Source of the DNA: Auricularia sp. M13
Lineage: Eukaryota; Basidiomycota; Agaricomycetes; Auriculariales; Auriculariaceae
NCBI GenBank assembly: GCA_037042915.1
Contig: CM073203.1
Location: 1 to 64,000 of the forward strand
Direction: 5' to 3'
Length of the DNA: 64,000 bases
Position numbers and translations under genes: made by a program. The notes under the pieces are model-generated. The model was not told the DNA's origin, did no database searches, and saw only the letters and a program-made list of their open reading frames with translations. This document shows, one piece after another, positions 1 through 61,715 of this stretch. The stretch's first letter is position 1. Every line of letters begins with the position of its first letter.

Positions 1-592
1 CAACCTCTTCCTCGACCTCCAGGTCAAGATCAAGGCCATCCTCGTCATCATCGGTGAGTTCCAGATGCTGCTCTTCGTCTTAAAACTCGCATGCTCATCG
101 CTTCTGACTTCTCAGCGGGTTTGAACGGAAAGGGCAGCTGCGCTGGACCCGTCGCGCAGATCGTTGTACTCATCAGGGCCTGCATCTCGGCGATAATCGA
201 ACTCGGCGTCGTGGTCGACATCAGTGACACTGTTACCCTCAACACCATCGTCTCCATTTGCGCGCAGATCCTCATTGTACGCGGTTTTCCCTTTATGATG
301 CAGCTATATCTGTGCTGAATAACTGTCTCAGGACATCCAAGTGCACGTCTCGGTCTTTGCGTCCATCCTGGTCAATGTGCTTGCCGTAGTCAACTTGGAC
401 ATCGCGCTCCAGGGTCTCCTCCTCAACTTGAACATCTGCATCAGTGGCATCGTGGCGCTCATCGCTCCGCTGTGAGTTTTGCCCCTGGTCACTATTTGCG
501 TTCGCTAATCCATCATCTTCAGCTGCGTCAGCCTCACCGCCGTTGTCAACCTACCACTCTCTCTCGTGCTCGTTGTCCTCGGGCTTCTCTAG
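1..592 (+). CDS. Small secreted protein, copy A1 (5' end missing)
   Basis: 3' part of a four-exon gene; the signal-peptide exon lies outside the window. Exons read 1-53, 116-276, 332-471 and 523-592, with introns of 62, 55 and 51 bp and a TAG stop. Internal exon lengths (161 and 140 bp) match the complete paralogues at 60993-61715, 2376-3104 and 57816-58525. The protein is rich in Val, Ile, Leu and Ala, with alternating hydrophobic residues and few charges, and ends in a hydrophobic stretch. I do not recognise a characterised family. The closest copy is the inverted one at 60993-61715. The role is unknown; the family is called secreted because complete copies begin with a signal peptide. Confidence 0.75.
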
Positions 593-2268
593 GACCGTTC
601 TAGTTCCTTAGCGCCTTGCGTACCGTATGTAATCAGGCACGTTAGTCTTACCGTACGTTCGCTGAGATCGAGTTCTTTCTGCTGCCATGAACGCCGAACA
701 GTTCCCTGACGCGCGTGAGCACCAAGAACCCTGATGGAGCATAGCGTGGCGCTTTGAGCCCTTTTGAGCCTATGCCACCTCGGGTATAAGTACGTAAGAG
801 CCTGATCCGATTGCTGCTTGTAGCATTGCCGGGAGAGGACCCGTGTTGGTGGTCACCGCCTCCTGCTCCCGTGCACTGGATAAGCCCGAGGCTAGCGTGT
901 GAACGCCATCTGCCTGCACGCTTTACGCTTCCCGATGACCCGTGAGGTGAGTCTAAGACCATGGTAGAGCTGACTGTATGCGATGACCGATGCTGCCATC
1001 TCTGACGGTCGGGTAATCTACCTCTCCCTTGGCTATGACGGTATTCTCGTTAGTGTCTCGCCAGGCCATCTTTTATCAAACCGCGTATAAATGCCATATA
1101 TGGCGTATTGAGGTCCTTTCGGGCAAGTTTGGCTTCTGAGAGGAGTTGCGCGTAATGCGCGTCCCAGTGTTGGCATGGCATACACAGGGAAAGACCCTTA
1201 TCCCTTTAGGTTTACCCAGTTACTCGCTAACTGCCCGCAGAGAGAGATAGACGCCTCTGTGCGCTTCGCGCAGACTTCTGGTACGGAGCCTACCACGACG
1301 CGCCCTTCATGCCGAAAGAGCCGCTCATTGTGCATTAAATACACTGAATGGTATTCATGGAAACTTGAACTATCCAATTATACTGTGATCTGTGTTACAG
1401 CACAGAGACCACTTCGGTCCTTTTGCACCGCGTCATGGCTTTTCTAAGGCGACTCGCAAGGAACGTTGTTACCGTTCAAAGTCCGACCTTCGGCACTCTT
1501 CCTCCTCCGCACCACAGGGTCAAGCCAGCGCCTGACAGATGTGCTGCCGACCCTCGCTGCATGCCAGAACTGTGCAAAGACTAATGAATGATGATGATGT
1601 CGCGGGCCCGCCGAGCTCGAGGCCCGCCGAGCTCGAACACAGGTGTGCAGGGTTCGCCTGTCGACACACGCTCCGTGTCACGCATGACGTCTGTTGTATC
1701 TCGTGAGCCATTTCTCAGGACAGCCCTGTCAACTCGTTCGAGTCTTTGACGACCATGGAGTCGTCCTATTCTGGTGGATGGCCTGGACGCCGCGCCACTT
1801 GTCTTCTTTGCCCGCGCACCCGCCGCGCGCGCGTTCTAGGGTACTGCGGGGGACCAGCGTAGTATCCGGGTTTCTGCACCACCGTAAGCTAATGTGCTTG
1901 AATGATTTCACCGTCGTCATCGGGCAACCGTCATTTAGACTCGAATATTGCTGCTCGCTGCCCGTGTCTCAGACTGCTTTCCTTGGCTTTGGGGCGACTG
2001 CAGACTTGTTCATGGGCCTCAAACGCTGGAATTTCCGGAGAAAGAACGCATCATCTTCTTGTTCTTCTCCGCGCTTCGCCGCAACCACCCCACAGTGGCA
2101 GTCGACCGAAAAGCAGCCGCCCCGTGTTGAAACAATCACTCTGATCGCGCTCGGGGCTAACTCTTACGCAGTCTCGCGACTTTCTGCCGTCATTAGAGGT
2201 TAGGCTCTCTGACGCAACCGTGTCTATCCTAAATCTATTGACACTCTGGATCATTGCGAAGGCGAAGG
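593..2268. other. Intergenic DNA, left arm of an inverted segmental duplication
   Basis: No gene is supported. Several stretches match, in reverse orientation, the DNA between the paralogous genes at 58.5-61.0 kb: about 690-960 pairs with 60130-60330, about 1470-1520 with 59370-59430, and about 1735-1900 with 58985-59170. By eye the match is roughly 80 percent. Open frames here mirror frames at the other end and are not conserved as protein. Confidence 0.6.
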
Positions 2269-2275
2269 TATAAAA
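2269..2275 (+). promoter_or_regulatory. TATA box of secreted-protein gene B1
   Basis: TATAAAA about 100 bp before the ATG at 2376. The inverted paralogue has the same box at the same distance. Confidence 0.6.
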
Positions 2276-2375
2276 GGCAGAGCGGGAACGCACTCTGTTC
2301 TCCAGCTCAGCAACTCCAGCTTGAGCTACTAGTCACTCCTCAACGCATCCCACGTTCTCTCAGCGCTCCCTCGCC

Positions 2376-3104
2376 ATGCAGCAGTCTCGCCTCATCTCGT
2401 TCTTCCTCGCGTTCTTCGCGTTCAGCCTCTTCGCGTTCGCCAGCCCCGTCGGCAAGGACGTCGCCGTCGCCCGCGCTGCGGACCCGCTCACGGTCATCCT
2501 CAACATTTTGGTGGACCTCAAGGCCAAGATTGACGTGAACATTGCTGCTCTCGGTGCGCGCAACCTCGCTCATTGCCACTGATGACTTCGTTACTCAACC
2601 ATCCCTGCAGTCAAGCTCAACGTGAACGCAAACATCTCGGTCGTCGTCTCGCAGATTGTTGTGGCGATCAACGTGGCCATCAAGGCGCTCGTAAGCGTCG
2701 GCGCCGTCGTGGACCTTAGCGACACGGACAAGATCTCGGTCATTGCCAGCGTCTTCGCCCAGATCCTTGTCGTACGTTCAATCCCACTGCGCTGTTTCCA
2801 CATCAGCCTTTTAACAACTTTCTCTCTCGCAGAGCATCGTCACGTCCGTCAGCGTCTTTGCCAAGGTCTTCGCCAACGTGACTGCCGTCGTGACGCTCGA
2901 CGTCGCGCTCCAGGCCCTCCTCATCCACCTCAACCTGTCCTTCGCCGGTATCCTCGTCATCATCGCCCCTCTGTACGTCCATTCTTCTTCCGTGATCGCA
3001 GAAACCAATCTCATACACTCTTTTCGTAACTTTGCAGCGTCGTCAAGGTCAAGGGGTCCATTAGCCTCACTCTCCCGCTCGTCCTCGCCCTCCTCAAGCT
3101 CTGA
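2376..3104 (+). CDS. Small secreted hydrophobic protein, copy B1
   Basis: Four exons (2376-2553, 2611-2771, 2833-2972, 3038-3104) give 181 residues. The N-terminus is a clear signal peptide: basic MQQSR, a Leu/Phe/Ala core and a likely cleavage after FAFAS. A short polar segment follows, then about 140 residues of Val/Ile/Ala-rich sequence with regularly spaced Asp and Lys. It has no cysteines and no recognised domain. Exon lengths 161, 140 and 67 bp are identical in its inverted twin at 57816-58525. The product is probably secreted or wall-associated; the function is unknown. Confidence 0.85.
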
Positions 3105-6017
3105 ACGGTCACTTCTCTTCCCCTTACGCTTTTAAATCCCAGGATATCCAATTCAATGTGTTGAAGACTGTTGATTCTGGATTTCTATTTGGCTAGCGCG
3201 TCTGTACCTGCCCTATAGTTCCTTCTCACCTGGATGAACGAATTTTGCATTTACTTTTTCTGATGCTCGGCTGCACTGACACTGCAACTGTGTCCGCTGG
3301 ATTCTGGGTCTCGCACCACCACCAATCATCGTCATTCTCGAGGCTTGGAGTTGCCGGCGCTTCAAGGGAATCTGAGTTCGCTGCTGCTTCTCCGACGCAC
3401 TTCGCTGTTCTCAAGCGGAGGTCTGAGGACTTCCATCTCACGCGCTCGAAGACGAATGCCATGTACTACTTCAGAAGCGTCGTCATCAGCTGCCAGCGCG
3501 ACCCGGAAATCAGGCAGAAGCCCATCCGCATTCGGACAGCAGCACGTGCGTCCGTCGAGGGCCGTCGGTGAGACTGTGGCCAGCTTACTGGCTATGCATT
3601 CTCTGCGCCTAGCCTTCGAGTGTTGTCGGGGACATGTTCAGCTTAAATGCTGTAGCTGTCTCCGCCGCCGCGTCGCGAGCCCGCAGGCGCAGTCTGAACC
3701 GGCGCCGGAGCTAGAGTAGGAGCAGGCGGACGACAACGACCCCTGTTGTCCTGAACCAAATACCAAGAGATACGCCTCATGGGCATTACCAGTGGCAGCG
3801 AAATCGTAATTGCCAGTGCTCTCAGGTGAGAGAACAAGGCGGAGAAAGCTCAGTCGGCCGGAGGGTCTGACGAGTCACGAATGAGATCGCCATGCCGGTG
3901 ACCAGTCTCCGAGCCTGAGGGTCAATGAAATTCGGAGGCGCTGCAGCACTGGCAGGCGCCTGTCAGTGGATGCACAGTGCGTAGTAGTACTAGTACAGAC
4001 GACCTCAGAGGTACCGCCAAGTACTAGTATTTCAGAGCAGACTCCACAGTCATACTGTGCTGGTACTCTAGCAGCCCCCACCCCCTAAATGTCGTGAATC
4101 AAACCACAGCGCATTCTGAGCTGCGTACCCAACCCGCCGGGATGCTGATTTCAGGTGAGTGCAGTGAAGTAACATGAACCTTTGGAGCAGAATTTCAATG
4201 CGTAAGAGTCAAACGCGTCTTGCAGCAGAATGGAGCCTGAGGGGGCTCCGATGTTAAGTGAGAACCGAGATTCCCTGAAGCTGCATACTGTGAGTTTCGA
4301 GAACCGACTCGGAGCAGAGACCCCTGATGAAGGAGCGCTGCGGCACTTAGTTAGTCACTGCCTCGATGTACAGTACGTAGAGACGGGCGGGATTCGCGAG
4401 GCGCAGAGTTCGTGTCACAATACCAGATACTGTAGCACCCCCCGGCCCCTATAAGCACTCTAACGTCCGCGGAGATACTGCCCATCAGCGCTGCCTGAGA
4501 TGCAGATAACCATGAAGCCTGAGCCACTCGAGTTTCGAGACTCGCCTGATGTGGGTAGCCAGTTTGTAGCCAGTAATCGCGTAGCGTTAGCCAGAATCTA
4601 TTAGCGTGAGGCCTTGACGGATGAGAGCACCAGTCTTATAGATTCCACGCAGTCGCTCCCGAGTTCTCGAGGCGCCGCTGTTGCCAGTGGTGAAGACGCT
4701 GCTGGGATAGAGCATAGAGACCAAGCGAGGTGTGTCGGCCCGGCGAGGTTCAAACCTAGTGAAGCAATCCTGAGTCGCTGGACAATGACAGCCGGGCAAG
4801 GGGCAGGCAAGGGAAAAATAGTGGACACGCACCCGAAAAAAAGTCATAAGCGGGTTGCCGAGCCCCCCCCCCTCCCCCCCTCGGAAGCAAATTTGACCCC
4901 GCGGATGCCGTATTTGGAACTGAAACTGGGTCAACTCCCGTTAAATGTTTGAATGTTGACTTTCAAAGCGTCCAGCAGCTCAATAGACGCAGCGCAAGCG
5001 TAGCTGTGCTCCTGGCAGAGGTAAGTTCTGGAGAAGGAAACCGCTGACATAAGCCCTCGGACATCGCCGCTCCCGGCGTGCTCCTGCTCCTCAGGTGGCC
5101 AAATTGCTTCATAGAGTCTTGCTAAAGCTCTTGGAGCAATTTAAGAAAGGAATATGCTGTGGGAGACACAGACAATGTTCAAATGGGCCTCCCGGACCCC
5201 GTCGGAAGCAAATAAAAAAAAAGTTATAAGCGTCTGGACCCACCCCCCACCCAGTCCGGTCCCGGACCCCGTCCAAATAAAAAAGTTATAAGCGTCTGGA
5301 CCCACCCCCCACCCAGTCCGTGTACCGGAGTTTGCCGATGCCTGCCCCTTGCAGCCGGGTCGGAAGCAAGTTGACGGAATCAAAAAGGACAATCAAACTC
5401 GAGCGTCGAACTTCAAACTGACAGTGACGCTGGACGGGGGAACAGCAAGCGTCAAGCTCGCGCACAAAGAAGAAATGCATCTCCTCGGAGCCAGAGTGAA
5501 GACGCTCAACGTAGCTGGCGTACTGCTTTGCGGCGTAGCCGCTTTTCGAGTCCTTAATTCAACGAGAGCATAGACCTTTGGGTGCTTCAATAATAAGGAT
5601 GGACGTTTGAGATGCTCAATGATATATTGCAGACAGACAGGAGATGGAGGGGATGCTATTACTACAGCAACAACGGCAACAGGATCTGTGGTCGACACAG
5701 CACAGCGCTAAGTGCACACGATACACGAACGAACCAATAACTGAAACATGCGTGAGGCGTCACAATGCACAAGTCGGCGCGGGCGAGGGGTGGGGGAAGC
5801 GGTCGTAGATGGCAGCAAGCGACGTGGGGAAGCGAGGTCCGTTGCAACAGCCCAAGAAAATAAACAATGAAGAGAGCGAAGCGTGTGACGCGCAGGACGG
5901 GAGCGCGCGAGGAAAGAAGGAAGGGAAGAAAAGGGAGAAAGCGGCGAGAGCGGGGGAGTATGTACCAAAGGTATATGTAGCGCAATAAGCATAGCATGCA
6001 GAACGTTGCTTCGCGGG
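3105..6017. other. Gene-free intergenic stretch
   Basis: No ORF with a recognisable product or a consistent exon chain. It holds poly-C/poly-A tracts near 4830-4900 and the tandem repeat at 5191-5322. The last few hundred bases lie just downstream of the PKA-like gene and probably include its 3' UTR. Confidence 0.5.
5191..5322. repeat. Two-copy tandem repeat
   Basis: Units at 5191-5260 and 5261-5322 share CCCGGACCCCGTC, an A-rich run, then AGTTATAAGCGTCTGGACCC and a C-rich end. A decayed third copy may lie near 4830-4900, where AAGTCATAAGCG and TCGGAAGCAAAT recur. Confidence 0.7.
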
Positions 6018-7558
6018 TTACGACGAGTAGTCAAAGTCGGGGAAGAGCGCGCCAAACGGGTCCTCTGCCTGGCGACCGTAATCCAGCGTGTTATTTTCGG
6101 TATATCGCGCGAACCTGCGGCGTGGTCAGCAAGAATAGAATCGAAAAGTATAACGGCACCCACTGGCTGGCGTCACCGTCGCCTTCGATCTTGGGCACAT
6201 ACGGCGCGGGAATCTCCTTCTTGTACAGCCGCTCCCAAGGCACCTCCGCGAACCAGGCGTGCGCAAAAATGTCCTTGGCGCCATACTTCATGTTGCCGTA
6301 GCGCTCAGTCACGTCCGAGGTGATGAAACGGCGAATAAGGTCCTTGGCCTTGTCGTCAAAGTAGGCGGGGTAGACGACGTTGCCCTGGATGATGAGCTCG
6401 TAGAGCTTGAACGGGTTCGGGTGGGGGTCGGTGGTGAAGAATGGCGGGAAGCCGGCGAGCATCTCGAAGATGAGGATGCCGAGGGCGTACCAGTCGACGG
6501 ACTTGTTGTAGAACTTGGTAGTCTCGACGATTTCGCTGAGCAGGATGTTTTCCGGCTTGAGGTCCGGGTAGCGTGTGCCGCAGAGCGTGCCGGTAACGGA
6601 TGGCACAAGCTTGGAGAAGCCGAAATCGGTGATCTTGACGTGGCCGTCGGCGCTGAGCAGGATGTTTTCCGGCTTGAGGTCGCGGTAAATGATCTGGTTC
6701 GAGTGCAGGTAGTGCAGGGCGAGCGCGACCTCGGCGGCGTAGAATTTGGCGACTGGGTCCGGGAACCGTGTCGACTTGCGTAGCAAAGAGAACAGCTCGC
6801 CGCCGGCGACGAAGTCCATGACCATATACAAATTCGAAGAATCCTGGAAGGTGCCCCAGAGATTGACAACGAACGGGTGTTGCACGTGCGAGAGCAAGTT
6901 GCGCTCGTTGAGGGTGTGTTCGACTTGCTTCATCCGTACGACCTTCTCTTTATTCAACACTTTGACAGCGTAGAACCGAAAGTTGTTTTTGCTGCGCACT
7001 GCCGATCGGTATGAGCGATTGAAAGTGTCGAACGGCAGCGTCGAACGTACCTAGGTGCACACGGCCGAACGAGCCAGTACCCAGCGTACGATGGAAGACA
7101 AAGTCGCCGAGGCCGTATGTATGCTTGGGTAGCTCTGCGCGGGGCTTCTTCGTCGGCATTGCCAGCAGCAGCGAGGCCTGGGACGGCGCGGCGATGGCGG
7201 GCGTCTTGCTGGGGTACGCCGGCGACGACGGATGTCTCACGCCGACGCCGTTGTCTGCGTCCTCGGGGTAGGGTGTCGCCAGCATCGAGGAGTCGTCAGA
7301 GGACAGTGAGCTCACGCCGACGCCGTTGTCTGCGTCCTCGGGGTAGGGTGTCGCCAGCATCGAGGAGTCGTCAGAGGACAGTGAGCCAAAGTGCGTCGGG
7401 GCCGTCGAGGACGGTGAGCGCGAGTGCATTGGGCGGTGGGGAAGGGGGAAGACGGCGAGCGCTGCAGGGCGCACCGGCAACTTCCTTTGTCCAGGCAACT
7501 CGTGCCAGTCGCGGATCCAATCTGCTTCCGACGCCATCCGCAGATCCCGCGACGGCAA
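6018..7558 (-). CDS. PKA-type (AGC) protein kinase with altered activation segment
   Basis: Three exons (7558-7051, 6998-6164, 6114-6018) give 479 residues; an upstream start is not excluded and internal Met codons exist. It resembles the catalytic subunit of cAMP-dependent protein kinase. Visible motifs: glycine loop [11 protein letters not shown]-binding Lys in FYAVKVL (residue 182), catalytic loop YRDLKPEN (Asp about 276), DFG (about 294), and an AGC tail ending LFPDFDYSS. The Ser/Pro-rich N-terminus holds a perfect 25-residue tandem repeat. After LCGT the usual PDYLAPE is missing; instead a second [10 protein letters not shown] appears (residues 315-324), copied from the catalytic loop. 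The tryptophan usual before the activation-loop threonine is Gly. The APE glutamate normally stabilises the C-lobe, so activity is doubtful. It may be a divergent paralogue, a pseudokinase or a sequence artefact. Confidence 0.85.
6534..6681. repeat. 31-bp direct repeat inside the kinase gene
   Basis: Exact 31-bp copies at 6534-6564 and 6651-6681, 117 bp apart, on the strand opposite the coding strand. One encodes the normal catalytic loop; the other replaces the APE segment. Confidence 0.95.
7236..7385. repeat. Perfect 75-bp tandem duplication
   Basis: 7236-7310 and 7311-7385 are identical. The length is a multiple of three, so the kinase N-terminus gains 25 residues (core [18 protein letters not shown] twice) without a frameshift. 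Confidence 0.95.
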
Positions 7559-23744: not shown

Positions 23745-23752
23745 GCACGGCC
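23745..23752. repeat. Target-site duplication, left copy
   Basis: GCACGGCC directly before the left inverted repeat; the identical octamer follows the right inverted repeat at 28730-28737. Confidence 0.9.
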
Positions 23753-23882
23753 CAAGGGGCCCGCACGATTTGGATCCGTGATATCGTCTGGGGGAGGGGG
23801 GGTCGTGGGAAATGATCTGGCGTCTACCGGCATCCCGGCAGATGCGATGTCGGTCGATGGCTCGGACTGCTACCGAGCTGCG
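23753..23882. repeat. Left terminal inverted repeat
   Basis: 130 bp, including a G-rich tract (five G, A, seven G), matching the reverse complement of 28600-28729 with one T/C mismatch in GGACTGCTACCGAG. Confidence 0.93.
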
Positions 23883-24012
23883 CTTTCTGCACGTGAGTGC
23901 GGGTGCGGCCCGCTTGCCAGCGCATGCGAGCGCACGCGCATTGTGCTGGATCGATAAGCTACGCTCCTTGTACTGCTACACTCACCGTCCCATCGAGTGC
24001 TCTACCGGCGCA

Positions 24013-27000
24013 ATGTCTAGTGCTCTGCCGAATACCGTACAGCTTTTGGCTGTACCTCCTCCCAGCGGTGTCTTCCATGCGCGGAGCTCCAGCTCACGTG
24101 CAATCCGTGTGACCTCTGACCTCGAGCTGTGGTCCAAATACGACGAGAATACTGGCTATCACTTCTTTGTCTGTGATCTCTGCGGATTTGAGGTCAACTC
24201 GGGCCCGACGGCGGTTGCAGATAATATGTTGACGCACCGCAAGTCTAGAAATTGTAACAAGCGCGTAGCTGAGCAGAGAAAGGTGATTTAATTACATTCA
24301 AATGGAAGGTGTTTAGGCTAAATTATCCGTCTCATAGTTCACAACACCTGTAGTCTCTCATAGTCTCCCCGCGGTTCCGTCCACCCCGAGGCGTCCGGTG
24401 TACTACTCTTGCCCGGGTGCTTACTATGTCTGGACTTGGGGCTCGTTCTGGAACACGTACCCGTTCCAGGAGCACATCGATGATTCCCTGGGCTGGCTGC
24501 CGTGTGGCTATAATACACGTCTGAACAGAATCTACTTCCGCTCAGAGAAGTGCCGCCAGCAGACGACGACCGCCACTGAGGCCTGTGTGGAGTGTCTCAA
24601 AGTCATTGGCTCTGGCGCTTTTCTTCACATGCTGGAACGCGCTCGTGCAGATGCACCGCTGAACACCCCATATTACAAGCTTACACACAGTCAGCTTGCT
24701 GCCGTCACGCACTATCACGTTGCAGAAAAGAAGAAATTACGATCCAAGGTGAGTGCACATGAATGCCCTTTGCTTGGTAACTCACTTGTGTTTTACGCAG
24801 GTCCAGTCCCTGCGCCGGCGTCACCGCAATGCGCAGAATCGCGTGCGGGATCATGAACGCGTTCTGTTGTTTCTCTCCAAGAACGATATCCAGCGCGTGC
24901 GCTGGGTCATTGCTGCATCACTCCGCACTGAATCAACCCCGGCTCGAGTTCTCTCTGTTCTGAAACTGGCAGCCGACGGACAGTATCACCCGCACGTCTC
25001 TGATGAACGGTTCCGCGACATCTCGCTCTTGTCGGCCTACGCTGGTGGTGAGAGGATGCACTTTGCAATGTGCAAGGGACTTGGGCTCCTCTCGAAGCGC
25101 ACGCTCGAGCGTCGTGCGAAGATTCCGCGGATGCGTGCTTCCGTCGCGATACCTCTTCGTGACGATGTTCTGCACAATATCGCCGCGTTTTTTGACCCAG
25201 AATTTCGCCCTCCACCGGTTCCGTCCAGCCGCAGCCGCTCTCACGCTGGAAATATACTCATGTTCGATGGAGTGGCGCTTGAGACACGCGCACGTTACGA
25301 TCAAGACCGCGACCAGGTTCTTGGCCTGGCTCGCGAGACTATCGGCAGTCTGGACACTCGGGCGACTTCCGTTGAGAATATCGAGACGATTAGACGTGCT
25401 TTACATGCGAAAACAGTTGCCTTCGGCACTGAGGCCACTATTGTCGCCATTGCGCCCTATTCGCAACGCGAGCATTACACGCCGGTCCCGCTCGTTTCGT
25501 CCCCTTCCAATAAAAAGGAGAAGGCCGAGCAGCTTCAGGCTTGGCTTACGACTGTTGTGGAGTCCTGGAATCTGCATCAGTATGGACGCATGTTGAACGG
25601 CCCCATCTGGTCTCTCGGCAGCGACGGCGATGCAACGTATCGCCGCGCAAAGCACGCTCTTTGCGTTGTCGCCGAGATCTCACCTCTCACACCGCTCGGA
25701 CAGAAGCTGGCTCCGCTGCGTGGCTTCAATCGCTACATGTCCGCGGACGGAGGGATGACAACGACGTGCGATCCGAAGCATGTGTTCAAGCGCTTTGCCA
25801 CCCTCCTGCGGAGTTCCGAGGGCATCATGCTCTATGGTACGAATATCCGCCCGCACGACGTCATTATGGTTCTCCGGGTATTCACAGCAATGGAGTACCT
25901 GACCGCGCGCAACTTACTGGACCCTGCAGACAAGCAGAACGTGCCCAAGGCCGTTAGTCTAATGCAGTCGCTCCAGCAGCTGAACAACGCCCCCGCCTTA
26001 GTCTCTTCGCCTGCCGAATCAAAGCGGCGCTCTTCTGTCCAGTTTTTTTCGGACATTCTTTGGTTCTTCGTCTGCCCATTTATCGACGTTGAGATGAACT
26101 TACAGCAGCAACTGGAGTCACTGGCGGCATTTGCACATGCTGCGGTCATTTTGTACGATGCACACGGTAACACCTGCATGACCGGCGCACTTTACTACGA
26201 CACACAGGCAATTGTGAAGAACATCTTTACGATTGTTGCTCGCCTCCAGCTCCTTGACCCGACGCTCTGCTTCTGGCTACTGCTCGAGGGGACAGATCGA
26301 CTGGAGCAGGTTTTCTCAGAGGTCCGCACTCTCGATCACGCACGCAACTTCGACATTTCTCAGCTCTCGAGCAAGCTTGCCATTGCGTGTCTCATCCAGG
26401 CCATATTTCAGCGGAGGCCTGATCTCGATCGTGGTCATCGCCGACTCGATGTGTCGAAGACGATCGGGATTGACCATCTCAACCCGCGCTCCTGGAAGGG
26501 AGATGTGTGCGTCGGAAATGTGGACCTTGCGCGGGCGTGGGCGACTGGCCGCGAAAAAGCCCTTGCCCGCTTTCGTAAGGCTTTCCCGGGACGGCCAGAC
26601 TTCGACTTCGAGGCTTGTTTCTCTCGCCCTAATCACGATGTGCTCCGTCCTGCTGGGCTCTATGTCGGCGTCGATGAGCGTACTCTGCATAATGAACAGC
26701 TTGAGAACCGCTCGGAACGCGCGGAACCAGCTGAGTCCTTACATATTCCAATGGCTGAGCCAGCACCGGAGGCTAGCAGCGCAGGAGCCTCTCCCCGTCA
26801 CCGCACGACCAGTGCTGTTCAGCCGCACTCTCAGACCACAGATAGAGCTGCCGACGCAACGGATGCTTCGGAAAATACACGCAATCCGTCAGACGAGCTC
26901 GACGCGGCCATGGTAGAACCTGGATTTGACATCGACGACTTCTTTCCCGACACGGTCGTTGACGAGTCATCACCGGAGCTATCGCAGACAATTCACCAGA

Positions 27001-28477
27001 AGGTTTTTCCGACATTCGTGAATGCAGAGGGCAAGACATTCTACAAGTCTGCCTATGTTGCAACACTCTCTACCGATGAGTCCAACAAGAAGCTCACAAC
27101 CCGGCCGCTCCGTGCAGCAGGGCGCTCTCTCCAAGATTTCCACCACTCAAAAGTAGTGGCTCTTGGCGGCACGCAGATGGACGACGGGTCTACTGTCAAA
27201 GTTGGCGACATTGTTGCGTTTCTTGCGCGCGTCGGAACAGCTTACGCACTGGTCCTGCTCGAAATTTCAGCATTTCGCATGTCATGGGGTGAAGCGCGTG
27301 TCTCGCTCACTCTCGATGAGTTTGAGGAGAACTCGAAGAACCTCAAGACGGTGGTGATCGGGCAAGTGCTCCGTCTTGAGCAGGCGGAGCCACGCACGTG
27401 GACTTGGACCGGAGAGTATCTCCAGCTGGATGACAAAATGGATACGCAGATCTCGCACGCGCGCTATGTCCTTGAGGTACCTGCCGCGATTACGTCTATC
27501 ATGGCTCCGGTGCTGAGCCAGGTAGTCCGGAATTCCGAAAGTGCGTCCTAGAGCAACGAAGTAGTATTCTCTGATTATATTTTAGCTGTCGGACCTACCG
27601 CTACATGGTCCTTTTCACAGGATGACATGCTGCAGACGTGTGAGGACGCTTGGGACGCGCTCAACCCTGAAACAGAGGAGATCATGTCCAACATTCTCCT
27701 CCTCCCCGTCGTTGAAAACATGAAGGATCTGCCTTTGCGTTCTGCAGATGGTGCGCCCAATTTCACAGTGCTGTGCTCTCCTCACGCAGTTCAGGCAAAG
27801 TTATTTTCAAGGTGCAGTCGTTGCCGCCGCACCTTGAGCCAAAGAAGAAGCACAAAGCGCAAGAATTACTGCCATGTAAGCTCTGCCGTGCTAATCTCAA
27901 GCTATCCAAGATGCGGGATCATGTTGGCGAGCACCTTCTTCGCGCACTGAGAAAGGTCCCTGATCCGCAATGCGTAAGATTGACGTCAGATCAATATTTG
28001 CTGCACTAATTCATTCCCCAGGACCAAGTCCCTGCCAATCCATGCGGTTTTTGCGGCCTCGGTGCTTGCACTACAATGCTCAGGCGCCGGAAGAACCAGT
28101 TTCAAATCTCATCGAGCTGCGAATATCACTACGAGAACATGAACTACAAGAAAGCGGCAGAATCCACGGATACAAGCAAATCAAGCAATGTTCCAATTCA
28201 CTGTGCACTGTGCGCGCCATCGAAATCGGGGCAGCTCCGTACAATTTGGAAGTACAATGCACTCTTCCATTGCGCCGCTGCTCACAGCGATGACGCCGAC
28301 TACGAGCCAGCTCACATCATGCGCTTACTAGTAGACACTCACGTTAGCTCGGAAGAGTCGTTGAGACTCGGGATTTCGAAGGAGCAGACGCAACGACATC
28401 GTGAAGTTGCTCGCTTGCCTGACTCGGATGCCATTGAAGAGTATAAAACTAAACTAGCGTCCCAGTCTGCAGCCTAG
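24013..28477 (+). CDS. P-element-like transposase with several zinc fingers
   Basis: Exons 24013-24282, 24338-24748 and 24801-27540 join cleanly; the next begins at 27586. The frame must shift between about 27736 and 27800 by an intron I could not place. Coding resumes to a stop at 28477 after an intron at about 27976-28021. The N-terminus has a BED/C2HC-like finger (CDLCG ... HRKSRNC). The central 900 residues carry candidate RNase H-fold acidic residues: ILMFDGVALE, SLGSDGDATYRRA, CDPKHVFKRF (compare the DPPHLIK motif of P/THAP9 proteins) and LLLEGTDRLEQVFSEVR (compare the TEALE..FFS.IR region). The C-terminus has a C2H2 finger (CKLCRANLKLSKMRDHVGEH) and a Cys/His cluster (CGFCG, CEYHYENM, CALCAPSKSG). 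Expected role: binding the TIRs, excision and integration in the nucleus. Confidence 0.75.
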
Positions 28478-28555
28478 TAATAGCATTCACTTGTGTACTT
28501 TGCTTGAATTCACCTGCACGGACTGTTCGAGAAATCGCGCATTTTCAATTGCACC

Positions 28556-28586
28556 CGTCTCAAACGCTCAGTGAGCGTTTGAGACG
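28556..28586. repeat. Subterminal palindrome
   Basis: Perfect 15-bp arms (CGTCTCAAACGCTCA) around a single G, 14 bp inside the right TIR and 78 bp after the transposase stop. It is absent from the left end. It could be a transposase-binding site or a transcript 3' hairpin. Confidence 0.85.
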
Positions 28587-28599
28587 GCTGCAATAAGAC

Positions 28600-28729
28600 C
28601 GCAGCTCGGTGGCAGTCCGAGCCATCGACCGACATCGCATCTGCCGGGATGCCGGTAGACGCCAGATCATTTCCCACGACCCCCCCTCCCCCAGACGATA
28701 TCACGGATCCAAATCGTGCGGGCCCCTTG
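28600..28729. repeat. Right terminal inverted repeat
   Basis: Reverse complement of 23753-23882 with a single difference. Confidence 0.93.
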
Positions 28730-28737
28730 GCACGGCC
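28730..28737. repeat. Target-site duplication, right copy
   Basis: GCACGGCC, identical to 23745-23752. Confidence 0.9.
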
Positions 28738-57815: not shown

Positions 57816-58525
57816 TCAGAGCTTGAGGAGAGCGATGACCGTGGGAAGACTAAGGTTCACAATGGCGGTGATCTTGCTGGCACTGGAGGAGCAGTCAGTA
57901 ACAGATGAAGTCCATGGGCGATGAACGTACAGAGGAGCGATGATGACGAGAATGCCCGCGATGCAGAGGTTGAGCTGGACGAGGAGGCCCTGGAGGGCGA
58001 GGTCGAGCGTCACAGAGGCAGTCACGTTTGCGATGATCTTGACGAAGACGGTGATGCAGGCAGAGAGACTCTACAGAGGAAATGGTTGTCAGTCCCACTG
58101 GAAGGCAAAGACACAATGGAAGTGGACGCACGACGATGATCGTAGCGCACACGTTGGCGATGGCCGAGATCTTGTCCTTGTCGCTGAGGTCCACAACGGC
58201 GCCGACGCTCACGAGCACTTTGATGCAGGCGTTGATAGACACGACAATCTGCGAGATGATGACCGAGATATCCGCGTTGACGTCGAGCTTGACTGAAGAG
58301 TCGCGGCTGCGAGTCAGACATGCCCAAGGCGCGCCAATATCACCCACCGAGAGCAGCAATGTTCACGTCGATCTTAGCCTTGAGGTCGAGAAAGGCGTTG
58401 AGGATGAGCGTGAGCGGGTCCGTGGCGCGGGCGACGGCGACGTCCTTGCCGACGGGGCTGGCGAACGCGAACAGGCTGAACGCGAAGAACGCGAAGAAGA
58501 GCGAGATGAGGCGAGACTGCTGCAT
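57816..58525 (-). CDS. Small secreted hydrophobic protein, copy B2
   Basis: Inverted twin of the gene at 2376-3104. Four exons (58525-58348, 58292-58132, 58070-57931, 57882-57816) have the same lengths as B1 and give 181 residues. The signal peptide MQQSRLISLFFAFFAFSLF is nearly identical. The body differs mainly by conservative swaps (e.g. INVAIKALV to INACIKVLV), which adds a few cysteines not present in B1. A TATAAAA at 58626-58632 sits 100 bp before the ATG, as in B1. Function unknown. Confidence 0.85.
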
Positions 58526-60992
58526 GGCTTGGGAGTGCTGGGAGAACGTGAGACGCGTCGAGGAGCGACTAGTAGCTGAAGCTGGAGTTGCTGAGCTGAG
58601 GAACTGACTGCGTCCTCGTCCCTCCTTTTATACCTTCACCCTTCGCGATGATATAGGTCGCGCACAATTTTGGGGAGAGCACGTTGCGTCATAGCACTGA
58701 GAGCCTGATCCTCAACTTTGGGCGGAAGTCGCGCTGCACTGCGTAAGAGCTAGCCCTGAGCGCGATCGAAGTGATTGTTCCAACACGCGTCGGCATTTTT
58801 TCGGAGGACCGCCAGTATTGGGTGTTTGAAGCAAAGCGCGGCCAAGAACAGGAAGATGATGCATCTTTCCCCCAGAAAAAGACCAAAAGACAAAGACATA
58901 ACCAGCTGTGTAGCACTCCAAAAGTAGTGGGAGCAGTCGCAGGCAGCGAGCAGCATTCATACTCGAGGCCAATGACGACCAGATGACGGCAGTGAAATCC
59001 CTCTTGCGCATTAGCCGGCGGTGGTGCAGAAGCCCGGATACTACACTGGCTCCCCGCGAGACCCTAGAACGCGCGTGTGCGGCGGGTGTGCGGGCTAAGA
59101 AGACAAAGTGACGCTGCGTTGAGGCCAGCAGCCAGAATAGCACGATTCTGTTGTTGTCAAAGACTTGGACGGGTTTCCAGGGTTGACCTGTGGGAAATGG
59201 TTCACGAGACACAATGAACGTCATCGTGCGACGGAGCGCGTGTCGGCGGGGAAGACCCTACACACTTGTTGTGTGACTTGGGCGCCGGGCCAGCGACATC
59301 ATCTCATGCATCAGTCGTAGCACAGTTTTGACATGCAGCGGGGGTTGGAACGATATCCGTCAGACGCTGGCTGACGCTGGCTTAATGCTGTGGTGCGGAG
59401 CAGGAAGAGTTCCGAAGGTCGGACTTTGAACGGCAACAACATTTCTCGGGGGTTGCCTTCTCAAACAGAAATGACGCAGCGCAAGTCGGGATATGACCTG
59501 TTCATGTTGGTGGGAGTGAACCAGTGGTACTTTCTCCAGCGATCGGAAACTGCAAAAAAGAAAAAAAAAAAAAGGTTCGAGACCCCGACATTCTCGAGCA
59601 GCATATGAATCTCGACAACTACTTAACGTGAATATCATATGTTACATATTGTGCGCGGTTTAATATATTCTTAGTACTCAGCCTGATGAGCGGCTCTCAG
59701 TGCGCATCAGAAAAGCTTTTCGCTTTATTCGGCTCCGTGCCAGAAGTCATTGTAAAGCGCTTGATGCCTCCCAGGGGGGTTAAAGATTAACTGGGAAAGC
59801 CTGACGGTGTGCAGGGACTTTCCCTCGGGGTGTGTGCGCACAGCAAACACCGGTCCAGTGAAATTCCTCCGCTCGGAAAACCAAACTTCCACTACGGACC
59901 GCTGCCGCACCGTATGTGGCAATTTCCCGCGCTCAAGCGCTTTCATACAGAAGGCCCCTCACGAGGTACGACGAACAACATGGTATCAGAGAGTTTGCTT
60001 GCCCCATGGTGTAGCTAGACGTCGTCGCTGATGCCGCAGCCATGTCACTAACAGCAGCTCCACGGGTCAGTTCTGCAACGCCAAGCACGTAGGCAGATGG
60101 CGTTCACACGCTAACTTCGGGATTATCCAGTTTGCGGGAGCAGGAGGCGGGGACCACCAACACCGTCACGGGTCCTCTCCCGGCAATGCTTCAGGTAGCA
60201 ATCCGATCAGGCTCTTACGTTTACCAGAGGTGGCTGAAGATAGGCTCAAAGCGCCACGCTATGCTCCATCAGGGTTCTCAGTGCTCACGTGCGTCAGGGA
60301 AGTCTCTGGGCGTTCAAGGAAGCAGAAAGAACTCGATCTCAGTGGTGTGTCCAGCCGGCGGCCACCTCACGTTCCCGATTGCATCCGCGACAAGTCCTCC
60401 GCAACGTCGAAAGACGTCCCAGCTCGTCTCCTCAGGCACTATAGCAGAGAGACATATACATAATCATTGAAAATACTTTCTATAAGCTGAATATGTACAA
60501 AAATTGGCGATTTGAGCAGTCTCATTTGTGCCCATTCTCAGCACAAATCTGCGAATAACCTTCCATAAACACAGCCTACGGCTCTCATACTTTGCTATCA
60601 TAGTGCCTTACACTACATTGTCAAATTGTGGGCCCCAGAACCGCGGTATCCTTACGGATATACTTATCCGGATAACTCTGAAAGCAAGAATTGCCGCAGA
60701 TACTGAGACCGAGACATCGTGCTCTAAATAGTACACCTAGCAATTGTAGCGATGCATTGCCGCTGTTATTTCCGGTGGTAAACAGAGGTTTAGCTCTTGT
60801 CCTGGGGGTTTAATTCGAGTCGGGAAAGCTGCCTGCAGGAAACAGCCGAAAACATTTACATCCGATTGAATGGCGGCCGGACACACCATGAGAATCTCAG
60901 CGTGTGTATGATTTCTCCGAACGTACGGTAAGACTAACATGCCTGATTACATACGGTACGCAAGGCGCTAAGGAACTAGAACAATCGGTATT
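58526..60992. other. Intergenic DNA, right arm of the inverted duplication
   Basis: Holds a TATA box at 58626-58632 (reverse), then inverted matches to 640-2260 in several blocks, with about 700 bp extra relative to the left arm. An A-rich run lies at 59550-59573. No gene is supported. Confidence 0.6.
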
Positions 60993-61715
60993 TTAGAGGC
61001 CAAGGGCGACAAGCACGAGGCTGAGGGTGAGGTTGACATTAGCGGTGAGGCTGACGCAGCTGCAAAGAACAAATTAGAGAACTCAAATAGTGACCAGGGG
61101 CAAAACTCACAGCGGAGCGATGAGCGCCACGATGCCACTGATGCAGATGTTCAGGTTGAGGAGTAGGCCCTGGAGCGCGATGTCCAAGTTGACGATTGCG
61201 AGCACGTTGACTAGGATAGACGCAAAGATCGTGATGTGCGCGTGGATGTCCTGAGGCAGACGGTTCAGCACGATAAGAGCGGCAGAATAAAGAAAAGCCG
61301 CCTACAAGGAGGATCTGCGCGCAAACGGAGACAATGGTGTTGAGGGTATCAGTGTCACTGATGTCGACCACGACGCCGAGATTTATCATCGCCGAGATGC
61401 AGGCGTTGATGAGTACGACGATCTGCGCGACGGGTCCAGCGCAGCTGCCCTTTCCGTTCAAACCCGCTGAGAAGTCAGAAGCGATGAGCACGCCAGTTTT
61501 AAGACGAAGAGCAGCATCTGGAACTCACCGATGACGACGAGGATGGCCTTGATCTTGACTTCGAGGTCGAGGAAGAGGTTGAGGTAGGCCAGAAGCGCGG
61601 GAGCGCGCTTGACCTCCGCGACCTCAGTCGACGCCTCGGGAACGGGGCTGGCGACGGCAAGAAGAGCCCCAAAGGCGAGGACGGTGAAGAGGACAGCGGA
61701 GACGCGAGACTGCAT
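60993..61715 (-). CDS. Small secreted hydrophobic protein, copy A2 (complete)
   Basis: Four exons (61715-61529, 61466-61306, 61250-61111, 61059-60993) give 184 residues. Signal peptide MQSRVSAVLFTVLAFGALL, then a short propeptide-like segment with a Lys-Arg (VAEVKRAPA) that a Kex2-type protease could cut, then a Val/Ile/Leu-rich body. Four or five cysteines, unlike B1. It is the full-length partner of the partial gene at 1-592. Family unknown; exon lengths 161, 140 and 67 bp are shared with B1 and B2. Confidence 0.85.

Follow-up and report, generated by a model that had tools for sequence, protein, structure and literature searches.

A probable P-superfamily DNA transposon with a multi-zinc-finger protein in the mushroom Auricularia sp. 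M13

Background

The best described systems close to the element reported here are the P transposase of Drosophila melanogaster (PDB 6p5a, 6pe2), THAP9 and zebrafish Pdre2. Papers are cited below by PMC number and from excerpts of their text. The P transposase carries a signature string of D230, D303, a [C/D](2)H motif at D339 and E531 (PMC8230255, PMC7776569). THAP9 and Pdre2 have a triad of RNase H type together with the D(2)H motif (PMC8230255), 8-bp target-site duplications (TSDs) and an N-terminal THAP domain. Among fungi, P elements with 8-bp TSDs have been described from rusts, reported as previously unknown in Dikarya, and two autonomous elements were reported from Melampsora in 2011 (PMC3164196). 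Here we describe an element at positions 23753-28729 (4,977 bp) of a 64,000-nucleotide stretch of Auricularia sp. M13 (positions 1 to 64,000 of contig CM073203.1, assembly GCA_037042915.1), hereafter the window. The element is close to certain to be a DNA transposon, and we put the probability that it belongs to the P superfamily at roughly 0.8. Its predicted protein bears zinc fingers where the animal systems carry THAP.

The rust elements listed in Repbase (P-1_PSt, P-1_MLP, P-2_MLP), compared here by description only, are likewise basidiomycete members of the P superfamily with 8-bp TSDs. We found no report of P elements in Agaricomycetes in the open-licence literature; the excerpt of PMC12730594 treats other fungal superfamilies, and the excerpted main text of PMC6416283 contains neither 'P element' nor 'superfamily P'. 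P elements are already known in fungi from the rusts, and what is added here is a THAP-less zinc-finger variant.

Element ends and genomic copies

The element is bounded by terminal inverted repeats (TIRs) of 130 bp at 23753-23882 (plus strand, starting CAAGGGGCCC) and 28600-28729 (minus strand), which differ at a single position, 119, and have the tips 5'-CAAGGG..CCCTTG-3'. The repeat recurs at both ends of two other copies. The 8-bp TSD GCACGGCC, to which no strand applies, directly abuts the left repeat at 23745-23752 and the right repeat at 28730-28737, and the span 23745-28737 is exact for the element with its duplications. Just internal to the right repeat, at 28548-28594 (unstranded), lies a hairpin with 23-bp arms that are 96% complementary and a 1-base spacer; it is present also in the other two close copies.

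We searched the source assembly (52.1 Mb, 14 contigs), the sole eukaryotic genome covered, using as queries the terminal repeat, the main exon and a distant relative's core. At least 15 family loci were recovered, the same 15 from two protein searches. They represent 14 independent insertions, because C11:2421040 shares its flanks with the window element and lies where the window region recurs in inverted orientation. CAAGGG stands at both ends of all 13 element sequences compared, and a perfect 8-bp TSD flanks 12 of the 14 insertions. Besides the window element with GCACGGCC, these are C5:3649228-3654715 (CGCCGACC), C4:137986-143769 (GCTTGAAC), C1:9360903-9367061 (GTCATTAC), C5:3584033-3590197 (ATGAAGTT), C1:866246-872154 (CGTCCACA), C5:332942-338912 (GGCAAGGC), C10:3215208-3221234 (GGGATACT), C11:1932034-1937906 (GGTTGATC), C10:3515811-3521980 (GCTCTTGG), C7:2374692-2380949 (GTGGAAAC) and C9:117587-123812 (GTCCCATC). 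The remaining two, C9:1183059-1188035 and C8:2894555-2900038, have none. The C8 element is full-length, with intact ends and 97% identity to the C5 relative. The right flank of the C9 copy opens with a perfect 26-bp palindrome (C9:1188036-1188061).

The duplications of the nine distant relatives are unlikely to be chance matches. Of 140 CAAGG..CCTTG pairs tested, nine were flanked by identical 8-mers, a single pair in each element; chance alone predicts about 0.002 (4^-8 per pair). A looser control of about 327,000 CA..TG pairs returned these nine and six further perfect hits, 15 in total. The duplication starts with G in 9 of 12 cases and ends with C in 8 of 12; counted on both strands, G-first/C-last reaches 17/24, compared with a background of 0.27 in the flanks (binomial p ~8e-6, post hoc). 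The target consensus of the P element, GTCCGGAC, likewise has G at its start and C at its end.

A midpoint-rooted tree of 13 cores, in which long branches including that of the window element were flagged, separates a window clade (four rows) from the rest (nine rows). Under the mismatch rule applied, terminal repeats measure 106-146 bp in the four sequences of the window clade and 6-23 bp in the other nine. Six of these nine have 12-14 perfect terminal bases, near the 13-bp terminal repeats of zebrafish Pdre2 (PMC7776569). A lone end at C1:5393254-5393293 (40 bp, 90% identity to the window repeat) has no CCTTG site within 10 kb with a matching flanking 8-mer at up to two mismatches. No relative was found among plasmid sequences. 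In viral contigs, 74 pattern matches to the family profile yielded no confirmed case, and a search there with the P transposase was also empty.

Movement, selection and age

Movement of the family is shown by empty paralogous sites of the relative at C5:3649228. This element sits in an open retroelement reading frame, which continues once the element and one duplication are removed. The rejoined flanks align without gaps over 281 bases to C5:3615397-3615677 (76%) and C2:2284909-2285189 (70%). Empty sites were also sought for the C4 and window insertions. The evidence for the C4 relative is weaker, because its paralogues, C5:205020 and C2:2351890, need gaps to align across the site and are 76% identical there. 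The TTGAAC motif had suggested a tRNA as the C4 target; ARAGORN reported none in three C4 loci, which lack the rejoined site, and the idea was dropped. No empty site of the window insertion was found in the source genome, where both flanks occur only in two filled copies.

Across their 4,977 bp, the window element and the C9:1183059 copy are separated by 25 substitutions, 18 of them coding, with six amino-acid changes (dN 0.0019, dS 0.0120). In the C8/C5 pair of relatives, 97% identical, two stretches of exon give dN/dS values of about 0.25 and about 0.18; one frame of the C8 copy was flagged for a stop. The family protein is under purifying selection. The pair C1:9360903/C5:3584033 is 99.4% identical, and the pair C1:866246/C5:332942 only about 76%. 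These values suggest that in some lineages a working gene has moved recently, and from the sequences we infer that the element may be active at present. With its near-identical open copies and purifying selection, the family is a candidate fungal transposon with recent activity.

The initial annotation of this stretch, made from the sequence alone, had described 130-bp TIRs with one mismatch, a perfect 8-bp TSD and one large interrupted gene, and all three stand (the gene as the six-exon model below, open in all three close copies). The search that it had proposed for additional copies sharing these ends and flanked by 8-bp duplications was successful. Empty sites came to light for the C5:3649228 relative, in two paralogues, and not for the window insertion. 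The contention that defined ends with a coding body would confer a mobile-element identity is supported by the ends, duplications, copies and the relative's empty site.

Gene model and predicted protein

The modelled gene fills most of the window element. It runs on the plus strand from 24013 to 28477 in six exons with five GT-AG introns of 44-55 nt, and would encode 1,406 amino acids (aa) plus a stop; its reading frame is open in 3/3 close copies. Exon 1 (24013..24282, aa 1-90) contains an N-terminal C-x2-C..H-x5-C finger, and exon 2 (24338..24748, aa 91-227) the conserved C162, C173 and C176. Exon 3 (24801..27540, aa 228-1140 plus one base) would supply the transposase core. It is followed by exon 4 (27586..27750), exon 5 (27795..27973) and exon 6 with the stop (28022..28477). 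For introns 2 and 5, relatives have interruptions at about the corresponding positions, which supports the model there; it is least secure at introns 3 and 4. Relatives show a further break near aa 559, which the window gene does not have.

Catalytic core and placement in the P superfamily

Six residues of the core (D383, D502, D551, H554, D726 and E729) are invariant in 8/8 aligned family cores, and in a 13-row alignment wherever the residue is present. They fit the P signature string D, D, [C/D](2)H, E. After verification of the P transposase sequence against PDB 6p5a, a profile of the family aligned to it by hhalign in three collinear, non-overlapping pieces, at P residues 157-247, 339-409 and 525-556, with the motifs in register. 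The best, segment 1, places D551-x2-H554 (25770..25781) on D339-x2-H342, where the insertion domain starts. Segment 2 places aa ~294-332 (24999..25115) on the helix-turn-helix (HTH) domain and D383 (25266..25268) on D230, and segment 3 places D726-x2-E729 (26295..26306) on D528 and E531; all these features lie on the plus strand. Segment 1 scores 29.2, above every one of 300 shuffles made from P residues 201-565 (maximum 27.8), and with hmmsearch --max the P transposase reaches 5.9 bits against 3.1 for the best of 500 shuffles. Segments 2 and 3 count through their order and register. The family further shares with Drosophila P the HTH-like region ahead of the first D, the large insertion between D(2)H and E and the 8-bp TSDs.

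The second catalytic aspartate is most likely D502 (25623..25625, plus strand), in an SDG motif. This likely counterpart of D303 lies outside the hhalign segments and, unlike D383, D551, H554 and E729, which were placed by alignment to P, owes its register to a consensus match to PF21787 (TNP-like_RNaseH_N) and to its distance from E729, 227 residues against 228 in P. PF21787 is the sole Pfam family matched by more than one of eight members scanned at E up to 1 (3/8, best 5.8e-4). It is also the best match of the family consensus, which covers profile positions 22-136 of 137 and both D residues at E 2e-4. A six-frame scan of the genome with PF21787 gave only three matches at E up to 1, all below the cut-off and all within the family. 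The core probably adopts an RNase H fold and would carry out the cutting chemistry. A scan of NCBIfam gave nothing meaningful.

The same Pfam scan bears on two other assignments. A divergent hAT transposon would also leave 8-bp duplications; hAT elements often have an N-terminal BED finger, an end consensus YARNG and the target pattern nTnnnnAn. The CAAGG ends of the family fit YARNG and an N-terminal C2H[C/H] motif occurs in 9/13 elements, yet only 2 of 12 duplications show the target pattern, the P transposase aligns with the family at the invariant D(2)H and DxxE, and no hAT family appears among the Pfam matches of the eight members at E up to 1, in a scan without a hAT positive control. 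We regard a hAT origin as improbable. Membership in the KDZ group (Kyakuja, Dileera, Zisupton) is more improbable still. This group is common in mushrooms and abundant in the source genome, with at least 149 matches to PF18758, yet none of the eight members matches KDZ in Pfam at E up to 1 and none of these at least 149 places falls inside the 15 family loci. Zisupton elements, for their part, also produce 8-bp duplications (PMC12730594). The many KDZ matches, together with the style of the genes, fit a basidiomycete host.

Several results weigh against placement in the P superfamily. Segments 2 and 3 (27.1 and 19.0) fall singly below the highest shuffle, hhalign gives the best segment a probability of 4.4%, and a forced global alignment to the P transposase returned nonsense and was discarded. 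PF21787 scores 22.1 bits with the consensus and 20.6 with a natural member, under the curated cut-off of 24.6, a property of the model and no feature of the biology, and the core of the window protein has no Pfam match. A PDB sequence search with the family profile at E up to 10 recovered two lipases and no P transposase. PF21788, the GTP-binding domain, has no match in the genome, where the positive control was silent too; the four weak genome matches to PF21789 are all outside the family. Two motif spacings differ from P, with 119 residues against 73 for D383-D502 and 49 against 36 for D502-D551. The window repeats are 130 bp long and those of P 31 bp (PMC7776569). AlphaFold2 run on the single sequence of aa 228-877 gave a mean pLDDT of 33.8 and no usable fold. 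To these are added the two insertions of 14 without a TSD and the lack of a THAP match described below. Our confidence in the P superfamily is reduced because two of the three alignment segments, taken singly, do not outscore all shuffles and because two motif spacings differ.

The family might instead constitute its own DDE superfamily, holding the P signature through deep common descent and deserving a separate rank. The sub-threshold or absent matches to P models, the missing THAP domain, the distinct CAAGGG ends, the lack of several GTP-site residues and the two unlike spacings all suit such a rank. The ordered alignment to P of the HTH, the first RNase H strand, the start of the insertion domain and DxxE speaks against it, and the rust P elements with 8-bp duplications could form a bridge (PMC3164196). 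We consider a separate superfamily unlikely and retain the P superfamily as the probable home of the element.

Zinc fingers, THAP and GTP-site residues

The N-terminal finger, C54-x2-C57..H75-x5-C81 (24172..24255, plus strand), was recognized as a BED-like sequence motif. In 9/13 elements, a count made without a chance control, a C-x2-C..H..[HC] motif occurs at a distance of 340-710 nt from the left end; at the protein level this region was seen to align only between the window and C4 copies. At the C-terminus, exon 5 encodes the finger C1223-x2-C1226..H1238-x3-H1242, and exon 6 the C1263/C1266 cluster and the finger C1316-x2-C1319..WKYN..H1338-x4-H1343. This module (C-x2-C..H-x3-H, Cys cluster, C-x2-C..WKYN..H-x4-H) is present at least partly in 12/13 elements. 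No Pfam finger family reached its cut-off at either end of the protein. In our searches, C11:1049679-1049984, C5:4212365-4213979 and C3:753834-754451 carried the C-terminal module with no transposase core; the first of these has a KDZ match about 5 kb away.

Neither exon 1 nor exon 2 of the window gene matches THAP at E up to 10, whereas the P sequence does so with the same library. This absence accords with the excerpted review that confines THAP domains to animals and reports them absent from fungi (PMC7776569). The family differs from Drosophila P in lacking THAP, in its additional C-terminal zinc fingers, in the predicted length of 1,406 aa and in its CAAGGG ends.

Much of what the initial annotation had read in the protein survives. 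FDG (aa 382), DPKH (aa 551) and DRLEQ (aa 726) are present as stated; DPKH corresponds to the [C/D](2)H signature that borders the insertion domain and not to the second catalytic aspartate, which is most likely D502. The P-type assignment is upheld by the motifs, the sub-threshold Pfam matches and the collinear alignments, and the single-sequence model, at a mean pLDDT of 33.8, did not show the RNase H fold put forward with it. Fingers at both ends do exist in the sequence and recur in relatives, in a gene whose first two exons give no THAP match, as claimed; the label 'BED' was not confirmed by Pfam.

The P transposase contacts GTP through D528, K385, K400, V401, S409, F443, D444 and N447 (PMC7776569), and D444 is essential (PMC8230255). 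Counterparts of V401 and D528 are invariant in the eight aligned cores. The K400 position is N or D in 8/8 and the S409 position Ser in 1/8. Placed by eye, the D444 counterpart (aa 645) is Asp in 3/8, all in the window clade, and the N447 counterpart Asn in 2/8; K385 and F443 are unaligned. GTP use by the predicted transposase cannot be assumed. To our knowledge, the GTP cofactor is held to be unique to the P transposase.

Proposed mechanism and implications

We suggest that the window harbors an autonomous cut-and-paste element of the P superfamily encoding a 1,406-aa transposase. We infer that its N-terminal zinc finger, perhaps with the C-terminal fingers, would bind the CAAGGG ends in place of THAP. 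The transposase would then pair the two ends and cleave them by means of a split RNase H active site made up of D383, D502 and E729. The ends would be joined to target DNA with an 8-bp stagger, at targets that weakly favor G as the first and C as the eighth base. More tentatively, the family may form a distinct THAP-less fungal branch of P elements that reads its ends with zinc fingers, and in which at least the clade without the D444 counterpart transposes without a GTP cofactor; we hold this combined proposal to be possible and rather doubtful.

If it were true, the two clades, with repeats of 106-146 and 6-23 bp and shared CAAGGG tips, would offer a natural series for the gain or loss of GTP control. 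A THAP-less P-type system outside animals would provide natural variants for testing the role of GTP in P transposition. An unannotated family of large zinc-finger proteins would also gain a mobile-element identity with exact ends, and its members could be annotated as transposases.

Other features of the window

Positions 1-64000 of the window recur inverted on the same contig at C11:2385769-2449769, with 92-99% identity in sampled stretches; this is either an extensive inverted duplication or an allelic copy that became joined to the contig. Within the window, parts of the first 3.4 kb (1-3396) are repeated near the right end at 57925-61462 with 77-95% identity, and positions 7236-7386 hold a perfect two-copy tandem repeat of 75 bp.

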